From positions 1 through 64,000 of IMG/VR virus record IMGVR_UViG_3300021961_000033: 64,000 nucleotides of DNA. One strand, given 5' to 3'. The notes beneath the pieces were generated by a model. That model was not told where the DNA came from, searched no databases, and saw only the letters and a list, made by a program, of their open reading frames with translations. The position numbers and the translations under genes were made by a program. The stretch is from a virus. Position 1 is the first letter of the stretch; every line of letters begins with the position of its first letter. This document shows positions 44,016 to 56,055 of the stretch, one piece after another.

Positions 44016-44473
44016 TATACCTGGACGTCTTCCATACCAGCAGTGCGTAACCTAACTATGTGTCCGCTCATCCACTGCTTGGAATCCAATCCTTTCATTA
44101 TGCCCAACCACTTGTTGCGTAATAAGGCAACTTCATTAATAAGTGATTCGAAGTCTACCACTTCATCTTCACCATCCACATACTTTTCTGCATCTCTGCT
44201 AGTAAGTGCTCGTGGATAGTTTTCCAGATACTTTACAAAATGTTTACGTCTAATTTTGCGTAATTGTATGTTTAAAAAATTAAGAACGGCTTCAACTTCC
44301 TGCAACTGATTGAATCTAATTTCAGTAATTGCAGGAAGTTCTTTTATACTCTTTTCTACTAAGCCGTGTATGCCTACTTCACGCCTAGCTAATTCTAGCT
44401 CTGCTTCGTAGTAAGTTATGAAATCTGGTATGTTGGCCAGATTGTCTGTAACTTTTGTATACCAGTTTATCAT
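44015..44473 (-). CDS. uvsY: UvsY-like recombination mediator
   Basis: 152 aa against T4 UvsY 137. Helix-rich with a basic middle (NIQLRKIRRKHFVKYL), an acidic DVDG-like part, then LLRNKWLGIMKGLDSKQWMSGHIVRLRTAGM, which resembles the C-terminal part of phage UvsY. UvsY loads UvsX onto gp32-coated ssDNA; uvsX and gp32 lie close upstream. Assignment rests on size, helix pattern and context, so it is tentative. Its ATG is 7 nt from a -10 box. Confidence 0.58.
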   Translation of the reverse strand: MINWYTKVTDNLANIPDFITYYEAELELARREVGIHGLVEKSIKELPAITEIRFNQLQEVEAVLNFLNIQLRKIRRKHFVKYLENYPRALTSRDAEKYVDGEDEVVDFESLINEVALLRNKWLGIMKGLDSKQWMSGHIVRLRTAGMEDVQV

Positions 44474-44590: not shown

Positions 44591-45535
44591 TTAGTGTGTA
44601 TTACGAATGTTGGCAACAAATCCGGGTGTGAAGAATTCATCAACAACATCATATACTGACTGTGTTAGAGCTTTAAGATTTGTTCTATCTACATCTGTCA
44701 TGCTGGAGATTGTAATACCATTTTTATCACAATCTTGTTCAAACTTTTCACAATCTTCAATAGACCATTTACGTTCTATTGCTGCTGCATTAGCAGCCGC
44801 AACTTTAAATAGCTCTTGAGTTGTTTCATCAAGTTCGTTCCAAAACTTTTTACTGACTGCAATAGTAGTCATAAACATACTATGCTGAGTTTTAAGCACA
44901 TGAGTACCTTTGAAACGCAAATAAGTTGTTTCTGCTGCATCAAGAGAACCCTGTTCAATTTCATCATAGCCATAGCCTAATTCATTATGAGTTTTAGGCT
45001 GTGCGCCAATGTTTTGCATTGTCATAAAGTTTACTGGATTACCATTTACACGCACAGTTGAATCCTGTAAATCATTTAATGAAACAATTGGCTTATTTGA
45101 ACCGATAACACGATACCCGCCACTGTATGTAAATGCGAGACCACGTAATCCTGAACGTTCTGCTAAACTATCACATAGTATTTTACCAATCGGCCCATCA
45201 ACAACTGAGCTTACATGATCATGATCACGGAATAAGAATGGCAAATCTAAAGCATAAAAATCTTTGTTAATTTTGCCAAATGCTGAAACTACTGTTTGGC
45301 TCATTGATATGCGATTATCATCTAATGCATCAAAAATTGACTCATAAGTTCCGCCAGCATCACGCACTGCTTCATCATTGTATTTTTCTACATATTCTGG
45401 TACAGTTAATACTTCAATTTTTAATGCACCTTTTGTAGTTTCTTCGATTTCTGCTGCAAATGCTTCAGCAGTTCTTAGAAACAAATGAATAGGTTCGTGT
45501 GCAATTACCCATTTTACTATTTTTTGAGTTGTCAT
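44591..45535 (-). CDS. TRAP-type solute-binding protein (DctP-like), no signal peptide
   Basis: 314 aa. WVIAHEPIHLFLRTAEAFA opens directly at the first strand, GGYRVIGSNKPI carries Arg142 and LQDSTVRVNGNPVNFM Arg162, the carboxylate-binding pair of the DctP family (PF03480). Then LRFKGTHVLKTQHSMF and ELFKVAAANAAAIE. Bacterial homologs carry a signal peptide and work in the periplasm with TRAP permease; here no signal and no permease genes are seen, so a cytoplasmic or virion role is likely. Late-type box and SD upstream. Confidence 0.88.
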   Translation of the reverse strand: MTTQKIVKWVIAHEPIHLFLRTAEAFAAEIEETTKGALKIEVLTVPEYVEKYNDEAVRDAGGTYESIFDALDDNRISMSQTVVSAFGKINKDFYALDLPFLFRDHDHVSSVVDGPIGKILCDSLAERSGLRGLAFTYSGGYRVIGSNKPIVSLNDLQDSTVRVNGNPVNFMTMQNIGAQPKTHNELGYGYDEIEQGSLDAAETTYLRFKGTHVLKTQHSMFMTTIAVSKKFWNELDETTQELFKVAAANAAAIERKWSIEDCEKFEQDCDKNGITISSMTDVDRTNLKALTQSVYDVVDEFFTPGFVANIRNTH

Positions 45536-46198: not shown

Positions 46199-46417
46199 CT
46201 AATAATCCTCATCATCATAATCGTCGGTATCTTGGTCGTTATCGTTATATTCAACTGCTTTTGCTAGAAATTTGTCTTCTGCAGCCATGGCTTCTAGAGT
46301 TTCGTCGCTAACTCCTAAATCTATAAGCTCCCCTATCCAATGGTCGGCTGCATTCTGTTTGTCTTTGATGTACTCTCTTAAAATTATCCACGTTTCAATT
46401 AAGAGTTCATCTTCCAT
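46199..46417 (-). CDS. Small acidic protein
   Basis: 72 aa, strongly acidic C-terminus (NDNDQDTDDYDDEDY). Starts MEDELLIETWIILREYI. TAATG junction with uvsX, so the two are co-translated. A DNA-mimic or UvsX-binding role is possible, unproven. Confidence 0.72.
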   Translation of the reverse strand: MEDELLIETWIILREYIKDKQNAADHWIGELIDLGVSDETLEAMAAEDKFLAKAVEYNDNDQDTDDYDDEDY

Positions 46418-47493
46418 TATATTTCTTCCTCCACGAGTTCAGTTGTATTTTCTATAGGTTCAACTTCCATGGACTTATTTACCAATCCATTGGAAATGTC
46501 ATGCATGATAACTTCTAACTTTTCTCCATCCCAGCCCTTGCGGAACTCTAGGATTTCTTCACCAGCCGCAGTAGTATACTTTAGCCTGTTGCCTTGCTTT
46601 ACGAGTAGGCCTTGCTTTTCAAACATATCCATTAGGCCACTGTAAGGATCCATGCCTGTTTCGTATGGAATCTTAACCTGCACGCCTTCAAAAGGTTTTG
46701 CATAGCGTGTCTTCATAACCTTACACGCTGAACGGATACCATTTACTTCACTTGTCTTGTTGCCATCCAGATCTTCCTTTAACTTGAGCTTACGCATTGC
46801 AACTACAATACTTGAAGCATAGATAAAGCCTTGTCCACCAGAGATCTTGTCATCCGGATCAAACATGTCTTGTGAAGCGTATGTGTGGTTGGTACACACC
46901 ATGCCAACGTTGTAACTACCAATCATGTTTACAGTGTTACGCACAAGAGCAGTTAGTGCTTTGGGCTTACGACCCATGTCACCTTTCATATCACCCTTGT
47001 CAAACTGATCAACGTCTGTTGGTGTGAGTAGCATACCCAAACTGTCAATTACAAACAGGACCTTGGGACGATCCTCGTCAGCCATGCTCTTATAATCCTT
47101 CATGAATGTTGAAATAGTTTTAGCAACATCATCAATCATACTCATGCTCAATTTGAGCAGTTTGCTTTCATCGGTGTCAACACCAAGTGCGTGTAACCAA
47201 CTTTCATCCAGTGCGTTTTCACTATCAATAAGCACAACAAAGATGCCCTGCTCTTGTGCGTTCTTAACAATGTTAGCACTAGCAAAGTAACTCTTGCCTG
47301 CACCAGATTCCCCAGCAAATACTGTAACCTTGCCCATAGGCACACCTTTGTAAAAGTCGCCACTAATAAGGTAGTTTAGAGCATAGTTGCCTGTGCTAAT
47401 CCAATCAGTTGGATCATGGAACCCAATACTAAGTCCATCAATACTTTTAGTAATATCCTTTCGAAACTTACTTACGTCAAACGGTTTTCCCAT
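46417..47493 (-). CDS. uvsX: RecA-like recombinase UvsX
   Basis: 358 aa. Walker A GESGAGKS (61-68), Walker B VLFVIDSLGML (about 145-155), MVCTNHTYA and GGQGFIYASSIVV in the L2-like region. Length fits T4 UvsX (391 aa) slightly shortened. Forms filaments on ssDNA with gp32 and UvsY for recombination-dependent replication. SD AAGGAAAT precedes the ATG. Confidence 0.93.
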   Translation of the reverse strand: MGKPFDVSKFRKDITKSIDGLSIGFHDPTDWISTGNYALNYLISGDFYKGVPMGKVTVFAGESGAGKSYFASANIVKNAQEQGIFVVLIDSENALDESWLHALGVDTDESKLLKLSMSMIDDVAKTISTFMKDYKSMADEDRPKVLFVIDSLGMLLTPTDVDQFDKGDMKGDMGRKPKALTALVRNTVNMIGSYNVGMVCTNHTYASQDMFDPDDKISGGQGFIYASSIVVAMRKLKLKEDLDGNKTSEVNGIRSACKVMKTRYAKPFEGVQVKIPYETGMDPYSGLMDMFEKQGLLVKQGNRLKYTTAAGEEILEFRKGWDGEKLEVIMHDISNGLVNKSMEVEPIENTTELVEEEI

Positions 47494-47508: not shown

Positions 47509-48333
47509 TTAATTAGTTGTTATTATACTATTCTTGTTAAGTTCTTGCAAGTTATTTTTTGCTTGAACTGTAGCCTCATATCCTCTAGTAAAAATTGTTG
47601 GTTCGTACCTGAATGCATTACTTATCCATATTAAACTATTATCCGGAAAGACAGGTGCATCATATAAATCTATTTTTTGAAAATTTACTTTCATTTTATG
47701 CCAATTTGGCCAATTTTCGTATAGATTTAGTGGTGGATTATAAAATCCAGACGTAGGCTGTGCTAAGTTAACAGTTTTAGGTAATTCTGGTTGACTGTGT
47801 AGATATTCAGCAAACTCTAATTGTCTAGCACAGTAATCATATACTGTAATTGTTTTGAAATCTCCCTGCAATGCATAAAGAGCTGTTTTCCAACCACTGG
47901 CTAAACCATAAAGATGAGCACAATTGTGGGTATGAGTTATAGGCGGTTCGTTGTTGTCTAAATACACCAATTTATTACTTCGTATACAAACCTTCAAAAG
48001 ATTTTCAATAATGTATAGTTGTTTAGATCCGGGTTGATAATACCTACGTTTAAAGTCAATCGGTATTTGTTTGTCAAATTTAATAACAAATTCACTATCT
48101 TTTGCATATTTGGTATAATTATGAGAACGAAAATCAGTGGTTAGAAAATCTCCAGTTTCTAAAATTACGTCATTACTGCCTGCTAATTTTTCTGCATTAT
48201 TATAGTCAGGAACAGTAACAATATGATCTACAAAGTCTATTGCTTGATTTTTGGCATCAAACAAGAGTTTTGTTTGCGTAAATCTTAAAAGACTTTCATT
48301 ATCACAATCATGTACTATAAAAGCTGTTCGCAT
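47509..48333 (-). CDS. Hypothetical protein, possible methyltransferase-like fold
   Basis: 274 aa, starting MRTAFIVHDCDNESLLR. GLASGWKTALYAL, ITVYDYCARQLEFAEYL (acidic tip like a SAM strand), NWPNWHKMKVNF and NSLIWISNAFRYE could be a Rossmann-type fold. No canonical GxGxG, so only a guess. Overlaps the hydroxylase by 26 nt, suggesting a functional pair. Confidence 0.62.
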   Translation of the reverse strand: MRTAFIVHDCDNESLLRFTQTKLLFDAKNQAIDFVDHIVTVPDYNNAEKLAGSNDVILETGDFLTTDFRSHNYTKYAKDSEFVIKFDKQIPIDFKRRYYQPGSKQLYIIENLLKVCIRSNKLVYLDNNEPPITHTHNCAHLYGLASGWKTALYALQGDFKTITVYDYCARQLEFAEYLHSQPELPKTVNLAQPTSGFYNPPLNLYENWPNWHKMKVNFQKIDLYDAPVFPDNSLIWISNAFRYEPTIFTRGYEATVQAKNNLQELNKNSIITTN

Positions 48334-48940
48334 AACTATCCTCTAAAATTTTATTACTTATTGTAGTATGCAATATTATATGCAATCTATATTGATCACT
48401 GTTATTAAATACCATATGCCTGTTGCTAGTATCTATTATAAAAGCACTACCAACTTCAAAAGGTATCGTTCCTCTATCTAAAAATCTAAAACAACAACCT
48501 TCTGGTTGGGTAATTGCTACATTTATTTCTTTTAACCCCTGTTCAGATCTATCTGCGTGGGGGAGAATATAGCCGCCTGGTTCAAGCAGCATAAACCTAA
48601 TTCTTTTAGTTTCCTCATTTATTATAAAATTGTCTTTTATCCACTGTGTCGTTTTAGGACATTTATAGGAAAGATAAGTCCAATTATGAGGAAGGTCACT
48701 GTTTGTAGTGATATGAGTATCTACACCATATAATACTGCACTCTTCCAACCTTTATGCGACATATTAGCCCATGAATCCTGTGATCTATGGGAAACCAAA
48801 AATTCTGTATTTTGTTCATATTCTAATAGAATATCATTAACAGGAACATCTATATTAAGTCTAAGCCATGGCAAACCTGTATTATTACGAATGTAATCAG
48901 ATGAAGGTCTAAACTTTAATAATGATTGAATTGCTTTCAA
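48308..48940 (-). CDS. Asp/Asn beta-hydroxylase-like 2OG oxygenase
   Basis: 210 aa. LLEPGGYILPHADRS gives H128/D130 iron ligands, SNRHMVFN gives H175, and DQYRLHIIL Arg185. Matches the aspartyl/asparaginyl beta-hydroxylase family (PF05118), double-stranded beta helix. Target unknown; a protein residue or an amino acid. Overlaps its upstream and downstream genes by 26-32 nt. The Asn-synthetase-like gene and gp32 are close by. Confidence 0.82.
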   Translation of the reverse strand: MKAIQSLLKFRPSSDYIRNNTGLPWLRLNIDVPVNDILLEYEQNTEFLVSHRSQDSWANMSHKGWKSAVLYGVDTHITTNSDLPHNWTYLSYKCPKTTQWIKDNFIINEETKRIRFMLLEPGGYILPHADRSEQGLKEINVAITQPEGCCFRFLDRGTIPFEVGSAFIIDTSNRHMVFNNSDQYRLHIILHTTISNKILEDSYANSFYST

Positions 48941-49750: not shown

Positions 49751-50728
49751 TTAGGACTTTTGTCTTGCGCGAATCATTGCAAGAATGTCATCCGCACTCT
49801 TACCGCCTGACTCTGCTGGTGCTGTTGCTACTGGAGCTGGCTGTGGTGCTGCTTCTACAACTGGTTCAGGTGCAGTCGCAGGTGCTGGCGCTGGAGTTGC
49901 TGCTGGTGCAGGGGTGTCAGACACAGAGGATCCTGCAGGAGCATCAACGCCATATGGGCGATAGTATTGCCCAAAACGCTCAACATCATACGCATCGCCA
50001 TCAACTGATGCTTCAAACATCTCCTTGATAGCATTTAGTTCTACCTCACTAGGACGTTTGGGTAGAAAATCGGACAAATTGTATAAGCCGTGTTCATCAA
50101 TAGCAGCCTTTTGTGCCGCAGTTACAGCGGTTTCTTTGCGAGCCCATTTACTTGTGCTATAATCTGCATACTGACCCTTGGTAGTCTTTGTGATGCGGAA
50201 GTCAAGTCCTGCATCAAGATCAGTTGGTAGCTCCTGGATATCTGGATCCATAAGTGCATCTTTAATAATACCAAAAATGCTTGGACTAATTACAAACCTG
50301 CGAATTGGATTCTCAGGAGTTTCGTCTTCTACCATTGGGTTTTCGTTCACAAAGCCCTGGAAGATATAGCTACGTTTCTTCCAATATTTGCGGCCCATTT
50401 CTTCTAAACTGGAGTCCTTGAACCATCCACGTACTTCACTGAGTACTGGACAGGCATCGTTCCACATTTCTACGCAGGGTACCTGTACTACTACCTGCTT
50501 GCTGTCCATCTGTCCTTTTACACCATTAAATGGTAAACGGATCATTAGACGCTCTTTCCAAAAGAATGTATTGGAAGGATCGCCATCCGCAAGGAATCGA
50601 ACAACTGCTGTTGAGCCTTCTGGGATATTCCAATGTGGGAAAATTGCGTTGTCGCCGCCGCCGCTTGTACGCTCTGTGCGTGTTTCTTGTGCTTTTAGTT
50701 TTGCACGAATTTCTGCTAAAGATGCCAT
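49751..50728 (-). CDS. 32: Single-stranded DNA-binding protein gp32
   Basis: 325 aa. Basic N-terminus (LAEIRAKLKAQETR) for cooperative binding, core with FPHWNIPEGSTAVVRFLADGD, FNGVKGQMDSK and VQVPCVEMWNDACPV, whose Cys may bind zinc, followed by YIFQGFVNENPM. An Ala/Pro linker (about 270-310) precedes the short C-terminus SADDILAMIRARQKS, less acidic than in T4. Coats ssDNA in replication and recombination. The leader holds the TAGGC array. Confidence 0.92.
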   Translation of the reverse strand: MASLAEIRAKLKAQETRTERTSGGGDNAIFPHWNIPEGSTAVVRFLADGDPSNTFFWKERLMIRLPFNGVKGQMDSKQVVVQVPCVEMWNDACPVLSEVRGWFKDSSLEEMGRKYWKKRSYIFQGFVNENPMVEDETPENPIRRFVISPSIFGIIKDALMDPDIQELPTDLDAGLDFRITKTTKGQYADYSTSKWARKETAVTAAQKAAIDEHGLYNLSDFLPKRPSEVELNAIKEMFEASVDGDAYDVERFGQYYRPYGVDAPAGSSVSDTPAPAATPAPAPATAPEPVVEAAPQPAPVATAPAESGGKSADDILAMIRARQKS

Positions 50729-50863: not shown

Positions 50864-51967
50864 TTATAAGATTTTGAAATTTTTGTAATTTTTTTGATTA
50901 CTAATTTTATCTAATTTTTTTGAGTCTAATTTTCTTATTAGCTCTTTATTGATATGTGCACTTTTTGCTTGTTTTATTATTAGGTCTTTACTAGCAGATA
51001 ATATTGTTTCAGATAAAGTAATATCTTTAAAAGGAGTAAAAGTTAGTGTCCTATCTAAATGCCAATGTTGATGATCATTAATATTCATATCTAACACAGA
51101 GTGAAATACGTCATCATTGATGGAGGACGGTATGTCTATATTCTTTTTTTTAAAATAAGTGTAATGATAATCATCTGGAGTAAGAATGTCGTCTAAGGTA
51201 AGTCCCCAATGTTTCAATATCATCGCCAATGCAGTTGGGCCACGTAACATGTTTTCATCGCCGTTGCCGCCGGTAACTAATACACAATCTGCGTCCCATA
51301 AATGTATTTGATTATATGCCCAAAACTGTTTTAATCTCATAACGTTAGATTTATAAAACGGAGTTAATTTAATATAAATGTAATCTAGTAATTCATAGTT
51401 TTTAGTAAAATGATCTATATATGCCCATAAAGTTGTAGTGTCTATACCACCAGTTAAAAAAACTTTTAAAGGTAGTGTATTGTGTGTTAAAAACTGTTCT
51501 ACTGTTGTGCACAGTTTGTTATGTAGAGTTTCAATAACTTGCTCATTAGTCAGTGTATTGTTTGGATATGTAAAAGGTTTATACCATTGCTTGTTTACAG
51601 TCAAATCGGACTGTACTTCAACTATACAGTCAGCCCAAATTTGTTCTTCACTTTCATGTAAATTAGTTAAGTAATCACTTGACACCCATAGGGGAAATCC
51701 TCTATTAGTATCATGAATAAGTCTTACACTATTGCTATCTGCAATGAAAGCACAAAAGTTACCTTTAAAAGTAGGGAAAGACTGCTCCTGTAAATCTCCT
51801 AAACAATCCTCTAATCGACAATGATTTACATAGCCTTTGTATACAAATGTATACTTCTCAATAGTTTTTGTATTCCAGCCATCATCAGTGCTTAAAACCA
51901 AGTTATTTGGTAGCACATAATGGTTAGGAAAATTTTTATCTAATTTTTTAGATAGATTAAAAAACAT
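50864..51967 (-). CDS. Asparagine-synthetase-like protein
   Basis: 367 aa. LTGGIDTTTLWAYI (171-184) is the PP-loop equivalent of SGGLDSS, and LVTGGNGDENMLRG (230-243) the later SGxGGDE-like block. Residues 65-105 (GNFCAFIADSN, NRGFPLW) resemble the glutaminase domain, but residue 2 is Phe, not the Cys nucleophile, so glutamine cannot be used that way. It may use ammonia or another amine, or adenylate a different acid (as in beta-lactam synthetases). ATG is 6 nt from a perfect -10 box. Confidence 0.78.
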   Translation of the reverse strand: MFFNLSKKLDKNFPNHYVLPNNLVLSTDDGWNTKTIEKYTFVYKGYVNHCRLEDCLGDLQEQSFPTFKGNFCAFIADSNSVRLIHDTNRGFPLWVSSDYLTNLHESEEQIWADCIVEVQSDLTVNKQWYKPFTYPNNTLTNEQVIETLHNKLCTTVEQFLTHNTLPLKVFLTGGIDTTTLWAYIDHFTKNYELLDYIYIKLTPFYKSNVMRLKQFWAYNQIHLWDADCVLVTGGNGDENMLRGPTALAMILKHWGLTLDDILTPDDYHYTYFKKKNIDIPSSINDDVFHSVLDMNINDHQHWHLDRTLTFTPFKDITLSETILSASKDLIIKQAKSAHINKELIRKLDSKKLDKISNQKNYKNFKIL

Positions 51968-51973
51968 AATACT

Positions 51974-52001
51974 ATTATAACATATTTGTTCTAGTTGTCA
52001 A
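51974..52001 (-). promoter_or_regulatory. Sigma70-type promoter, consensus, leaderless type
   Basis: TTGACA, 16 nt ending ATGT, TATAAT, then AGTATT and ATG 51967. No SD. Confidence 0.8.
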
Positions 52002-52003
52002 AT

Positions 52004-52027
52004 GAAGAGGCCCTTGCGGACCTCTTC
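52004..52027 (-). terminator. Terminator hairpin with GCAA-type loop
   Basis: GAAGAGGTCC/GGGCCTCTTC with loop GCAA on the minus strand, after the gene ending at 52050. T run is weak, so efficiency is uncertain. Confidence 0.6.
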
Positions 52028-52049: not shown

Positions 52050-54470
52050 TTATTTGCTTTCGATGTCTTGTAGTTTTCTCATTTCTCTAGCAACTATACT
52101 TCTTGGTGTTATTCGATAGCCTGGTTCGCCTTCTCTTAGCCCGTGATTGCTTCTTGCTGTTGACCCTATGCCTGACATGCGTTTAATCCAGTCTAGTTCG
52201 TCAGTGCCTTCCTGTGCTTGTTCTACGCTTTCCATTGGTTCCATATCGTCATAATATTTTTCATCAGATTCCATTCTCTTCTGATCTAGATATTCTTGTG
52301 TAACTACGCCTGGGTGCATTGCCATAATTTCTTCGTCACTTGCACCATCTTGAATCATTTCTTCAACATGCTGGTCAATGTCTCTCATTTTGCCTTCATC
52401 AACCTGGGTTTCGTCTTCTCTCATCTTTCTATGAGGCTTGCCGCAACCTTCGTCCATGCCTTCATCTATAGTGTTGCCTAGTTCTAGTTCACCTTTCCAG
52501 TAGTCTTCCATGTATGCTGCTACTTCACGGCGAACTGATGTATTAAAGATACGATTCCAATCTGTGCCTACACTGTGCTGTTGTGCATAACGCTTGGCAG
52601 CATCTGTTGCCCAGTACATCCAAAGTTTCTTAGCCAACTCGCTGTCGTATACACCCTTTGCCATTTTCCTTGCAAGGTTTTTAACAATTGGTGTAGTGCG
52701 TTGACGATACAAGTCACCATCGTTCTCGCCAAATAGTACTAGCTCATGAGCTTCATCGCTCATAGCAGAAGCATCTGATGAAGTTGCTTCGCCTACTTTT
52801 TTACCCATTGACTTTTTGATTGCCTTGTCACGAGCAGCCATGTAATCATCGCTGTCAATGTCTCCATCACCGTCATGATCCTTGCCTTTTTTCTCGCCGA
52901 TAAGTTCTGACATACTGTCTTCATATTCTGCAAAATAATCTCTGCTGCTTACGCCTGTGACTTCTTGTGCTTTCATATCAATACTCTCTTCTGCTTTTTT
53001 GTGCTGAGCCAAATACATTTTTGCTAATTCAATTGCTTGTTTCTTCTGGCCTTTAAATTCTGGTGTGTCTACCTGTCCAAATGGACCGCCTTGACTACCA
53101 ATTTTTTCTGCCATATCAGCAGCAAAAATACTTACTTCATCATCTACTGCTCTACTCGCAATGTCTACTAGAATCATCTGTAGCACTGCTTTGTTATCTC
53201 TAGCAGTAAACTTTGGCATCTCGCCTGGAATAAGTTTTAGATCACTTGGTACTGTAAATTCACGACCTGGAGCATCGCCACGGTCACTGTCATCCATGTT
53301 AAGTTCTCCATAGCCAGGATTTTTAAATCTACTAGCAACTTTCTGTCCTTCACGGTCCTGCTTGTCCTGTGTAAATGATCCAATCTCTTTGCCAGCTACA
53401 GTTGCAGTAAGTGTAATTGTACCTTTGTCGTCTTCGTCTCTCTGGATTTCTGCACCATTCTTTTTAGCAGCAGCAATGAAATCGTCCATATCGTAATAAT
53501 CACCGCTTTTCTTTTCTTGTAATTTCATTGCTTTACCCACAGCAGATAAACTGCCTTCTAGTCTGTCATCAAATACTGATCTTGTTAATTTAGATTTGAT
53601 ATCATTAATATCATCATCAGATACTTCAACAGCATCTGGTGAGTAGTTTTCAAAATAATCTGTATAGCCTTTTTGTTTGCTAATACTTTCTAGTGTGCTT
53701 TTTAAACCATAATATCTGCCAGTTGCTTTTTCAATAATGTCTTGTGCGTCTTCATTTACATAGTCATTGCGTTTAACACCACGAACAAAATCTTTTAGTT
53801 GTGACATTTCTGCCATGATTTCTGAAATGTGTTCGCCATATTGATCGTTTTGATAACCGCCATTGCTAATATGACGTGCCATTGCTCTAGCACCAGGTAG
53901 GTAGTTGTTTTCAAAACGGAATCGTTCGCCCTGGCCGTTTTCAATATAAATTGCTTTAATGTTTCTACTACGAGCGCCGTGACGTTCTTCATCAACAGTG
54001 CGAGTATGCTGAACAATAAGTTTTGCACCATTTAAATCCTGGTAACTCTTTTGCTTGCTGCCGTAAAGTCTGCTTTCCATAGCAAGTTCTTCCTCTGTCT
54101 TATTCTGATTGGCGAGATATTCGTAATCTTTTTTGTCAAGTCTAGTTTTACTAATGTTTTTTGCTTCATAGTTTAACATGTTAGCAGTAGCAAAATGTTT
54201 TAGTCCTGTAAGGAAATCATAAAATCCTTGTGTAGCGTCTGCATCCTGTTCGGTAACAATGTCGTTGTTAAAATAGACTTTTAGGGCACCTTCATCAACT
54301 AGACTTACTACTACACTGCCTAATTTTTGTCCCTGATTTGTATAATCAAATTCAAAAAATACTGCCTCTTGGGGCATGAGTGTTTGCTGGCCATCTGCTT
54401 TGCCCAGCGTTAGGTTTCCGAATTTTCCACGGAGTTTATTGAATAAGTCTTTTGATGTCGTGTCTGCCAT
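52050..54470 (-). CDS. Large virion-type protein with EF-hand-like site
   Basis: 806 aa. Globular N-terminus (residues 25-130), then long charged helical stretches. Near 527-545, KDHDGDGDIDSDDYMAARD is an EF-hand/dockerin-type calcium loop with the DxDxDG pattern, a hallmark I recall in virion proteins of marine T4-like phages. Late-type box ends 7 nt before the ATG; no SD. Likely a structural or head-internal protein. Confidence 0.72.
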   Translation of the reverse strand: MADTTSKDLFNKLRGKFGNLTLGKADGQQTLMPQEAVFFEFDYTNQGQKLGSVVVSLVDEGALKVYFNNDIVTEQDADATQGFYDFLTGLKHFATANMLNYEAKNISKTRLDKKDYEYLANQNKTEEELAMESRLYGSKQKSYQDLNGAKLIVQHTRTVDEERHGARSRNIKAIYIENGQGERFRFENNYLPGARAMARHISNGGYQNDQYGEHISEIMAEMSQLKDFVRGVKRNDYVNEDAQDIIEKATGRYYGLKSTLESISKQKGYTDYFENYSPDAVEVSDDDINDIKSKLTRSVFDDRLEGSLSAVGKAMKLQEKKSGDYYDMDDFIAAAKKNGAEIQRDEDDKGTITLTATVAGKEIGSFTQDKQDREGQKVASRFKNPGYGELNMDDSDRGDAPGREFTVPSDLKLIPGEMPKFTARDNKAVLQMILVDIASRAVDDEVSIFAADMAEKIGSQGGPFGQVDTPEFKGQKKQAIELAKMYLAQHKKAEESIDMKAQEVTGVSSRDYFAEYEDSMSELIGEKKGKDHDGDGDIDSDDYMAARDKAIKKSMGKKVGEATSSDASAMSDEAHELVLFGENDGDLYRQRTTPIVKNLARKMAKGVYDSELAKKLWMYWATDAAKRYAQQHSVGTDWNRIFNTSVRREVAAYMEDYWKGELELGNTIDEGMDEGCGKPHRKMREDETQVDEGKMRDIDQHVEEMIQDGASDEEIMAMHPGVVTQEYLDQKRMESDEKYYDDMEPMESVEQAQEGTDELDWIKRMSGIGSTARSNHGLREGEPGYRITPRSIVAREMRKLQDIESK

Positions 54471-54489: not shown

Positions 54490-56055
54490 TTAAACTATTA
54501 CAAAGGGCATCGGAGCGATGTCTTGATCGCTTCCGTCCCTCATGTGATTATCTAGTTCTGGTAGATAGTTTTTAATTTCTGTAGCCATACGCACTGCTAG
54601 TAGTGTAGCCATAACTAAGTCATCAGTTTCGCCTATCTTTGCAGCATAACTTGTACCATTTGCTATAAAGTTTTTAAGTTCACTAACAAGAAGTTTACTT
54701 TTTACTTTAAGTCTGTCTGTTTCTACCATGGTTTTTAACTTGCTACAATAAGTTAACTTACTTCTCTGTGTGGTGTTAAAGCCTTTTCTGAACCTTCTAC
54801 TGTTGCCATGTGCTTTACTTTCACTTAAAAACACGCCAGTAATGTTTTCTTCGCCACGCTCGTATATGCTAATAAGAGCTGCTTCGCCAAGTGTATTGTT
54901 TTCCACACTGTAGTACACGCTGTTTGAGTCACCAATCTGATCACCTATAAACTTACATATACCTGATAAAATGTCTATTTGCTGTGGTATAGCACTCTTG
55001 TTATGACACCATTCTGCAACTTGTATCATGCTTGGTGCTTCAAATACCTGTATTGCAGCAGGATCACCACCTGTTCCTAAACTGGGATCCAAGGCAACAA
55101 TATATGTGCAGCCACGCTCGGGCATTTTATACCAACGCACTGTGCCCTGCTTGTGTATAGGATCTGTGCCAATCATATTTGTAAGAACAAGACTATCGAT
55201 TAAAGTTTCGTCATTAATAATAAACTCGCAATCATGTTCACGTCTAAAACGCTCCTCACCAATGCGTCCTAATTCTTCTTCTTTCCACTTTTCGTCTCTG
55301 TCAGGATGCTCCCACCAGTAACTGCGATATGCTTTAAAACCGTTTACGCCAATATCTGTTTCGTTACCGTGTGCATCAAAACACTTGTTTGCATCTCTCC
55401 AGATCATAGCAAACTGGTCTTCATCACTGTTAGGCGTGCTTGTAATAATTGCCTGTCCACCAGTAGCAAGTGTAGGAGAAATACTTGTCCAGAATTCTCT
55501 AGCAATACTTGGTCTCACAAACGCAAACTCGTCACAGTATAGCATACTAATACTTAAACCACGTCCGGTATTATCAGTAGTTGCCTGTGCTATAATTCTA
55601 CTACCGTTATCAAACTCTATACTACCCTTATTGTAACTGGTAACACCAGCACGGATATGATTAGGACATAGTTCATATCCATATCTAATACGCTGCATAA
55701 TTTCCTGAGCACCAGAATATTTGTGTGCTGCAATAAGGATAATACTATCTGGCACAAACATAGCACGCCATAACAAGTAACCCGCAGCGGTAGTTGTTTT
55801 ACCAGTTTGTCTAGGTAACATGTTAACATTAAATCTAAAATTATGATAGGTATCTAATAATTTTTGTTGATATTCAAACGGTGTGTATAACAACTTGCCC
55901 TTTGTAGGATGCTGTATATAAAAATAGTTCTCCAAGAAATGCATAGGTCCTGATCTACTATCAGCACATGCTGCAAACTCTTGGATTTGTTTATGGGTAT
56001 AACTTTCTTGTTTATGTGCTTTTTTAATTAAAACGCCATCTAAACTTTTAGACAT
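54490..56055 (-). CDS. 17: Terminase large subunit gp17
   Basis: 521 aa. Walker A PRQTGKTT (81-88), Walker B MLYCDEFAF (171-179), coupling motif ITSTPNS (204-210), then RNase H-like nuclease with Asp323 in ALDPSLG, Glu near 395 in SVENNT, and Asp near 490 in DDLVMATLL. T4 gp17 is 610 aa, so this is shorter at the ends. It cuts and pumps DNA into the head with gp16. SD AGGAT. Confidence 0.95.
   Translation of the reverse strand: MSKSLDGVLIKKAHKQESYTHKQIQEFAACADSRSGPMHFLENYFYIQHPTKGKLLYTPFEYQQKLLDTYHNFRFNVNMLPRQTGKTTTAAGYLLWRAMFVPDSIILIAAHKYSGAQEIMQRIRYGYELCPNHIRAGVTSYNKGSIEFDNGSRIIAQATTDNTGRGLSISMLYCDEFAFVRPSIAREFWTSISPTLATGGQAIITSTPNSDEDQFAMIWRDANKCFDAHGNETDIGVNGFKAYRSYWWEHPDRDEKWKEEELGRIGEERFRREHDCEFIINDETLIDSLVLTNMIGTDPIHKQGTVRWYKMPERGCTYIVALDPSLGTGGDPAAIQVFEAPSMIQVAEWCHNKSAIPQQIDILSGICKFIGDQIGDSNSVYYSVENNTLGEAALISIYERGEENITGVFLSESKAHGNSRRFRKGFNTTQRSKLTYCSKLKTMVETDRLKVKSKLLVSELKNFIANGTSYAAKIGETDDLVMATLLAVRMATEIKNYLPELDNHMRDGSDQDIAPMPFVIV

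Follow-up and report, generated by a model that had tools for sequence, protein, structure and literature searches.

The amidotransferase domain of beta-lactam synthetase (BLS) has no working glutaminase. Among phage enzymes, CmoY of Synechococcus phage S-B43, a homologue of asparagine synthetase B (AsnB), ligates glycine to 5-carboxymethylcytosine (PMC12783734). In RiPP biosynthesis, AsnB-like enzymes of the PesC and TsrC type have been described, and the AsnB-like PesC is a nitrile synthetase (PMC13060819). Here, we describe a phage gene for an AsnB-like ligase whose family, so far unnamed, is a variant of the AsnB superfamily new here, and we compare it with these systems.

Genomic setting of the ligase gene

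The analyzed DNA, hereafter the window, is a stretch of 64,000 nucleotides (positions 1 to 64,000) of the 117,201-base IMG/VR record IMGVR_UViG_3300021961_000033, from an uncultivated T4-like phage. The first-pass annotation had placed the open reading frame at 50864-51967 on the minus strand, with an ATG start and 367 aa, and its coordinates, strand, and frame were confirmed. The ligase gene is flanked by the virion protein gene on one side and the SSB gene on the other, among the following features:

46417-47493, UvsX, T4-like neighbour
49751-50728, SSB, T4-like neighbour
50864..51967, minus strand, MFF-family AsnB-like ligase gene (open reading frame with ATG, 367 aa; about 70 relatives; full-length AsnB/beta-lactam-synthetase fold in the AF2 model)
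52050-54470, virion protein gene, T4-like neighbour
54490-56055, TerL, T4-like neighbour

The UvsX block also includes a gene (44591-45535, minus strand; PF03480, E 9e-41) for a DctP-family TRAP solute-binding protein that has no obvious signal peptide, and a 34% relative of this protein occurs in locus L127.

Identification of the family

As the sole query, the window protein gave no match in phage isolates, PDB sequences, PHROGs, or viral contigs, and nothing above noise in Pfam, where PF00733 was not matched. The match to Pfam ADI and other weak Pfam matches of the ligase and its family were discarded as chance. The relatives were first reached through TerL synteny, which gave 80 TerL-related loci, four of them with a homologue in the slot between the virion and SSB genes. 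The alignment of these first relatives was then used in two IMG/VR scans, which retrieved 45 loci in the first round and 69 in the second, at identities as low as approximately 28%.

In total, the family comprises about 70 relatives, all viral except one. In one scan of cellular genomes, the single cellular relative (28% identity) was found in a Bacteriovoracales MAG (L149:7869-9092); it also begins with MFF, and its surroundings look chromosomal, with an aminotransferase, a PLD-like protein, and an adenosine deaminase. Isolate phages gave no match by tBLASTn of a distant member either, and no PHROGs model consistently matched the family. Pfam Asn_synthase (PF00733) weakly matched 5 of 37 members, with a best E of 0.0025, below the Pfam cut-off, and NCBIfam TIGR03108 weakly matched ligase residues 120-186.

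Predicted fold and catalytic residues

The single-sequence AlphaFold model was unusable (pLDDT 32), whereas the alignment-based model reached a mean pLDDT of 94.5 and a pTM of 0.92. The latter matched TsnB9 (Z 20.5), BLS (Z 19.0), AsnB (Z 18.9), carbapenam synthetase (CarA; Z 17.2), and human ASNS (Z 16.8). These AsnB-type matches span approximately 310-324 residues, almost the whole chain, in a predicted two-domain fold of an Ntn and a synthetase domain, whereas other PP-loop enzymes gave a Z of only about 5. The layout shared with BLS, proposed in the first-pass annotation, was thus recovered by structure comparison of the predicted model. Residues 1-129 of this model matched the glutaminase domains of EgtC, GlmS, and PurF, with Z from 7 to 8.8. 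The predicted model and the motifs together assign the ligase to the AsnB superfamily, with the following parts:

51578..51967, minus strand, degenerate class-II glutaminase (Ntn-type) domain, residues ~1-130 (F2 and K44 in 54/54; fold match)
50867..51577, minus strand, synthetase domain (PP-loop ATP pyrophosphatase), residues ~131-367 (fold search; weak TIGR03108 match)
51437..51454, minus strand, PP-loop TGGIDT, residues 172-177 (G173, G174, and D176 invariant in 54/54)
51254..51271, minus strand, GGNGDE, residues 233-238, corresponding to AsnB G347-E352 (D237 to D351, E238 to E352)
50891..50893, minus strand, Lys359, putative equivalent of the AsnB catalytic Lys449 (WRQKEQF against SNQKNYK; invariant in 54/54)

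Residue conservation was counted over 54 aligned members in which the N-terminus is present. E. coli AsnB was numbered from C1, and equivalences were set by motif position, not by coordinate superposition; a weak profile alignment spanning residues 53-188 backs them. Functions were assigned to the ligase residues from the roles of their AsnB counterparts.

The protein starts with MFF and carries the loop FLTGGIDTT at residues 170-178, as previously annotated. M1-F2-F3, the loop glycines, and the loop Asp recur in 54/54 members, which excludes a sequencing accident for Phe2 and the loop. The N-terminal catalytic Cys of AsnB is replaced by Phe in all 54, and the glutamine-binding Asn74 (NGE motif) corresponds by motif alignment to Lys44 (KGY), also in 54/54. 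Methionine aminopeptidase is not expected to remove the initiator Met before a bulky residue 2, so no N-terminal nucleophile can form.

In the synthetase domain, none of the ATP-binding residues was lost in the alignment (54/54), and the description of an AsnB-like enzyme with an intact ATP site and no glutaminase nucleophile extends to the family. The marks of the AsnB superfamily, namely the PP-loop [ST]GGxD and the equivalents of D351/E352 and K449, are invariant in every member counted; within the loop, position 172 is S or T and position 177 is T or S. Judged by its motif position, Lys359 is probably the equivalent of AsnB Lys449. Position 234, which corresponds to AsnB E348 (general base, ammonia step), is Ala, Gly, Ser, or Cys, once Phe, and never Glu. 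The checked positions invariant in 54/54 were D28, W31, K44, G45, and N102 in the N-terminal part, and G173, G174, D176, G233, G236, D237, E238, R242, P244, D298, Q300, H303, T307, and K359 in the C-terminal part.

Promoter and predicted expression

The promoter, described earlier as near-consensus and leaderless, proved even better than claimed, matching the sigma-70 consensus at 12 of 12 positions. Only two such 12/12 sites occur within the 64 kb, listed here with a hairpin near the first:

51974..52001, minus strand, sigma-70 consensus promoter of the ligase gene, TTGACA-16-TATAAT, with an extended -10 (TG before the -10)
44508-44473, minus strand, second perfect TTGACA-16-TATAAT, followed 7 nt downstream by the ATG of a 152-aa open reading frame
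52004..52027, minus strand, GC-rich hairpin GAAGAGGTCCGCAAGGGCCTCTTC, separating the ligase promoter from the virion gene

The -10 box of the ligase promoter ends 6 nt ahead of the ATG, and the transcript is predicted to be leaderless. The consensus promoter suggests early expression of the ligase by the host RNA polymerase. The 152-aa open reading frame at 44473, which accompanies UvsX in several loci, is probably another leaderless gene. The leaderless geometry is repeated in two further ligase lineages (L021/L092 and L093-L096/L099), and L081, L082, and L087 carry a perfect promoter with a 17-nt spacer, a 27-31 nt leader, and a Shine-Dalgarno-like AAAGGA. The hairpin is a possible terminator of the virion gene, with a weak T tract on the minus strand.

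A radical-SAM partner in relatives

When the neighbouring genes were clustered, many loci proved to have a radical-SAM gene as the immediate neighbour of the ligase. Its product belongs to the twitch radical-SAM family NF033640 of NCBIfam (E 6e-54, above the cut-off) and weakly matches several peptide maturases. Twitch radical-SAM genes are abundant in such phages, with up to 19 per record, and NF033640 matches were present in 24 of 27 TerL-reached records without a ligase in the fetched stretch. As the family is common in ligase-less stretches too, co-occurrence at the family level is uninformative, and the tests of adjacency and subfamily carry the weight.

In the first of these, a twitch radical-SAM gene immediately adjoined the ligase in 18 of 38 records, against about 2.3 expected from copy number at an assumed 900 bp per gene. 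In the second, IMG/VR was scanned with the adjacent radical-SAM subfamily, which yielded 33 loci at 41% identity or above, followed by a gap to 28%. The ligase was directly adjacent in 31 of the 33 (23 convergent, 8 co-directional), and the remaining two, L158 and L177, reach a contig edge near the ligase position; this result, 31/31 testable loci, is partly circular, as the query alignment was built from fifteen loci that themselves show the adjacency, and, with several near-duplicates among the paired loci, independent cases number nearer 24. No ligase adjoined the radical-SAM gene in any of the 46 more distant loci. A cleaner test is provided by previously unfound records, where 7/7 testable loci were paired (L156, L159, L160, L162, L163, L171, and L178). 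Additionally, the pairwise protein distances of ligase and partner correlate (r 0.80; 0/20,000 permutations), as expected if the two were inherited as a unit. The radical-SAM subfamily is a dedicated partner of the ligase in many lineages of the family, and the gene pair points to a two-step chemical modification during infection.

A twitch radical-SAM gene of a different type is adjacent to the ligase or one gene away in L116, L124, L104, and L125/L126; in L104, L125, and L126, a MaoC-like hot-dog protein is encoded between the two, downstream of the ligase. Three records of 320-332 kb (L113, L131, and L140; G016, G029, and G035) hold 15-19 NF033640 matches each, some in tandem. In many freshwater jumbo-phage loci (for example, L140:7291-8001), the gene immediately upstream of the ligase encodes a ClpP-like protease, and the ClpP-like neighbour cluster covers 20 loci. 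One record encodes a canonical AsnB of 572 aa (GATase_7 + Asn_synthase; L086:14508-16226) approximately 5.4 kb from the MFF ligase.

The window's own ligase and selection

The partner gene had no match in the window or in the 117-kb record, which may be incomplete, and many other ligase loci are also without it. In the ligase tree, the window member belongs to a group of ten with good support, which includes both paired (L090, L087, L085/L086, and L091) and partnerless members (L081, L082, L092, and L040). From this nesting, repeated loss or relocation of the partner is probable, with selection on the ligase maintained. In seven member pairs, dN/dS was 0.10-0.20 whether or not the partner was adjacent; the ligase is under purifying selection, including in lineages without an adjacent partner.

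Proposed function and alternatives

The best explanation as a whole, to which we assign a probability of roughly 0.6, is an AMP-forming ligase with a dead glutaminase and, in the paired lineages, a substrate linked to the radical-SAM enzyme. We infer ligase catalysis, its type of reaction, and its timing as follows. In the C-terminal domain, the TGGIDT loop would bind ATP and D237/E238 would bind Mg, and a carboxylate would be activated as an acyl-adenylate. An amine, either separate or part of the substrate itself, would then capture this adenylate, the intermediate being stabilized by Lys359, and the resulting amide would contain an amine not derived from glutamine. With Phe2 in place of the Cys and Lys44 in place of the Asn that binds glutamine, ammonia cannot be liberated from glutamine by the N-terminal domain, which may now be structural or bind the substrate. 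In the paired lineages, the adjacent dedicated twitch radical-SAM enzyme probably produces or modifies the substrate. Because the window's ligase is nested among paired relatives and the partner is absent from its record, its phage may use a different radical-SAM enzyme or have a reduced pathway. Expression would be early, from the host-type sigma-70 promoter, with a predicted leaderless mRNA.

A more specific version, which we hold tentatively and at somewhat less than even odds, is a dedicated two-enzyme phage pathway: on a nucleotide, cofactor, or peptide, the twitch radical-SAM enzyme would make a carboxylate or amine of an unusual kind, which the glutaminase-dead ligase would join to a partner. 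If true, the pathway would give a product or modification that is specific to infection and of a kind so far undescribed. New chemistry is plausible for the ligase given that CmoY is a DNA-modifying ligase and PesC a nitrile synthetase. Moreover, a family that is absent from PHROGs and hardly detected by Pfam is now recorded with a clear partner gene, and the ligase becomes testable together with one subfamily of the large, function-unassigned group of phage radical-SAM proteins.

Among the alternatives, a RiPP-like route survives best, though we consider it unlikely: the radical-SAM enzyme would alter a ribosomal peptide, which the ligase would cyclize, amidate, or nitrilate, as lasso cyclases and PesC do. 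AsnB-like enzymes act on peptides in RiPP clusters (PMC13060819), and SPASM/twitch radical-SAM proteins, to several of which the partner has its weak NCBIfam matches, are common peptide maturases. However, no precursor-like short open reading frame was conserved across the ligase loci within 4 kb, where the small frames that recurred encode an acidic protein linked to UvsX and other phage proteins with no relation to it. The precursor could be encoded elsewhere in the genome or could be a virion protein.

Somewhat less probable still is a ligase of DNA-base hypermodification, by which an amine would be attached to a carboxylated base. The precedent is CmoY, a phage AsnB homologue proven as a DNA-base ligase (PMC12783734), and in the marine clade the ligase gene is located among the SSB, UvsX, and TerL genes. 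Nevertheless, the C5-cytosine methyltransferase family of the CmoX type (PF00145) was found neither in 27 ligase-bearing records nor in the window's record, and CmoA was not found in the latter; any of these records may be incomplete. A pathway to 5cxmC of the CmoX/CmoA type is therefore unsupported, though some different carboxylated base might serve as the substrate. CmoY also consists of the synthetase domain only (271 aa), and the hhalign alignment of the ligase family to it covered just 17 columns.

We give little credence to the idea that the protein has lost catalysis and kept its fold as a scaffold or regulator. Every member has a dead glutaminase site and has lost the general-base Glu of AsnB, but the ATP-site residues and K359 remain invariant despite divergence to 30% identity, and dN/dS is low, as given above.

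Finally, the first-pass annotation had suggested that the ligase works together with a hydroxylase at 48308. This hydroxylase is real (PF05118, E 1.8e-15; Asp/Asn-type), and it is encoded 1.9 kb from the ligase on the same strand of the window. Its gene forms, with that of a 274-aa protein (p274), a pair of its own (47509-48940, minus strand) that co-occurs in L008 and L079. The gene order in L008 is virion, SSB, p273, hydroxylase (86%), p274 (92%), and UvsX, with no ligase gene, and L079 likewise carries the hydroxylase and p274 without a ligase. The ligase-bearing L082, L040, and L091 have SSB, p273, and UvsX with no hydroxylase in the slot, and the PF05118 matches in 27 ligase-bearing records are scattered, none adjoining the ligase. 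The hydroxylase goes with p274 and not with the ligase, and this genomic distribution contradicts the suggested partnership, which we regard as highly improbable.

Comparison with known systems

BLS and CarA share the two-domain AsnB fold with the ligase over its full length (Z 19.0 and 17.2 with the predicted model). At 367 aa, the ligase is shorter than these enzymes (~500 aa), and the catalytic Tyr348 of BLS, part of a Tyr-Glu dyad, contrasts with position 234 of the ligase, which is Ala, Gly, Ser, Cys, or Phe and never Tyr. Unlike BLS and CarA, the ligase is phage-borne and, in relatives, has a radical-SAM partner. The likeness to E. coli AsnB lies in the fold (Z 18.9), the SGGxD loop, the GxGxDE motif with D351/E352, and the putative K449 equivalent; unlike AsnB, the ligase has no equivalents of the N-terminal Cys, Asn74, and Glu348 and falls below the Pfam cut-off.

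Like the proposed ligase, CmoY is a phage-encoded AsnB homologue using an amine other than glutamine-derived ammonia, and its E348 position is Ile, so that the Glu is absent there from both. CmoY is a good Pfam match (E 4e-15) with the synthetase domain only, whereas the ligase has two domains; CmoY also sits with CmoA and CmoX, whereas neither of their families was found in the window's record, nor PF00145 in the 27 ligase-bearing records. PesC and TsrC resemble the ligase as AsnB-like enzymes beside other tailoring enzymes, but PesC takes its nitrogen from glutamine, whereas the ligase glutaminase is dead and no precursor peptide was found near its gene. The partner, in turn, belongs to the same NCBIfam family as other NF033640 proteins but forms a distinct subfamily found only beside the ligase.
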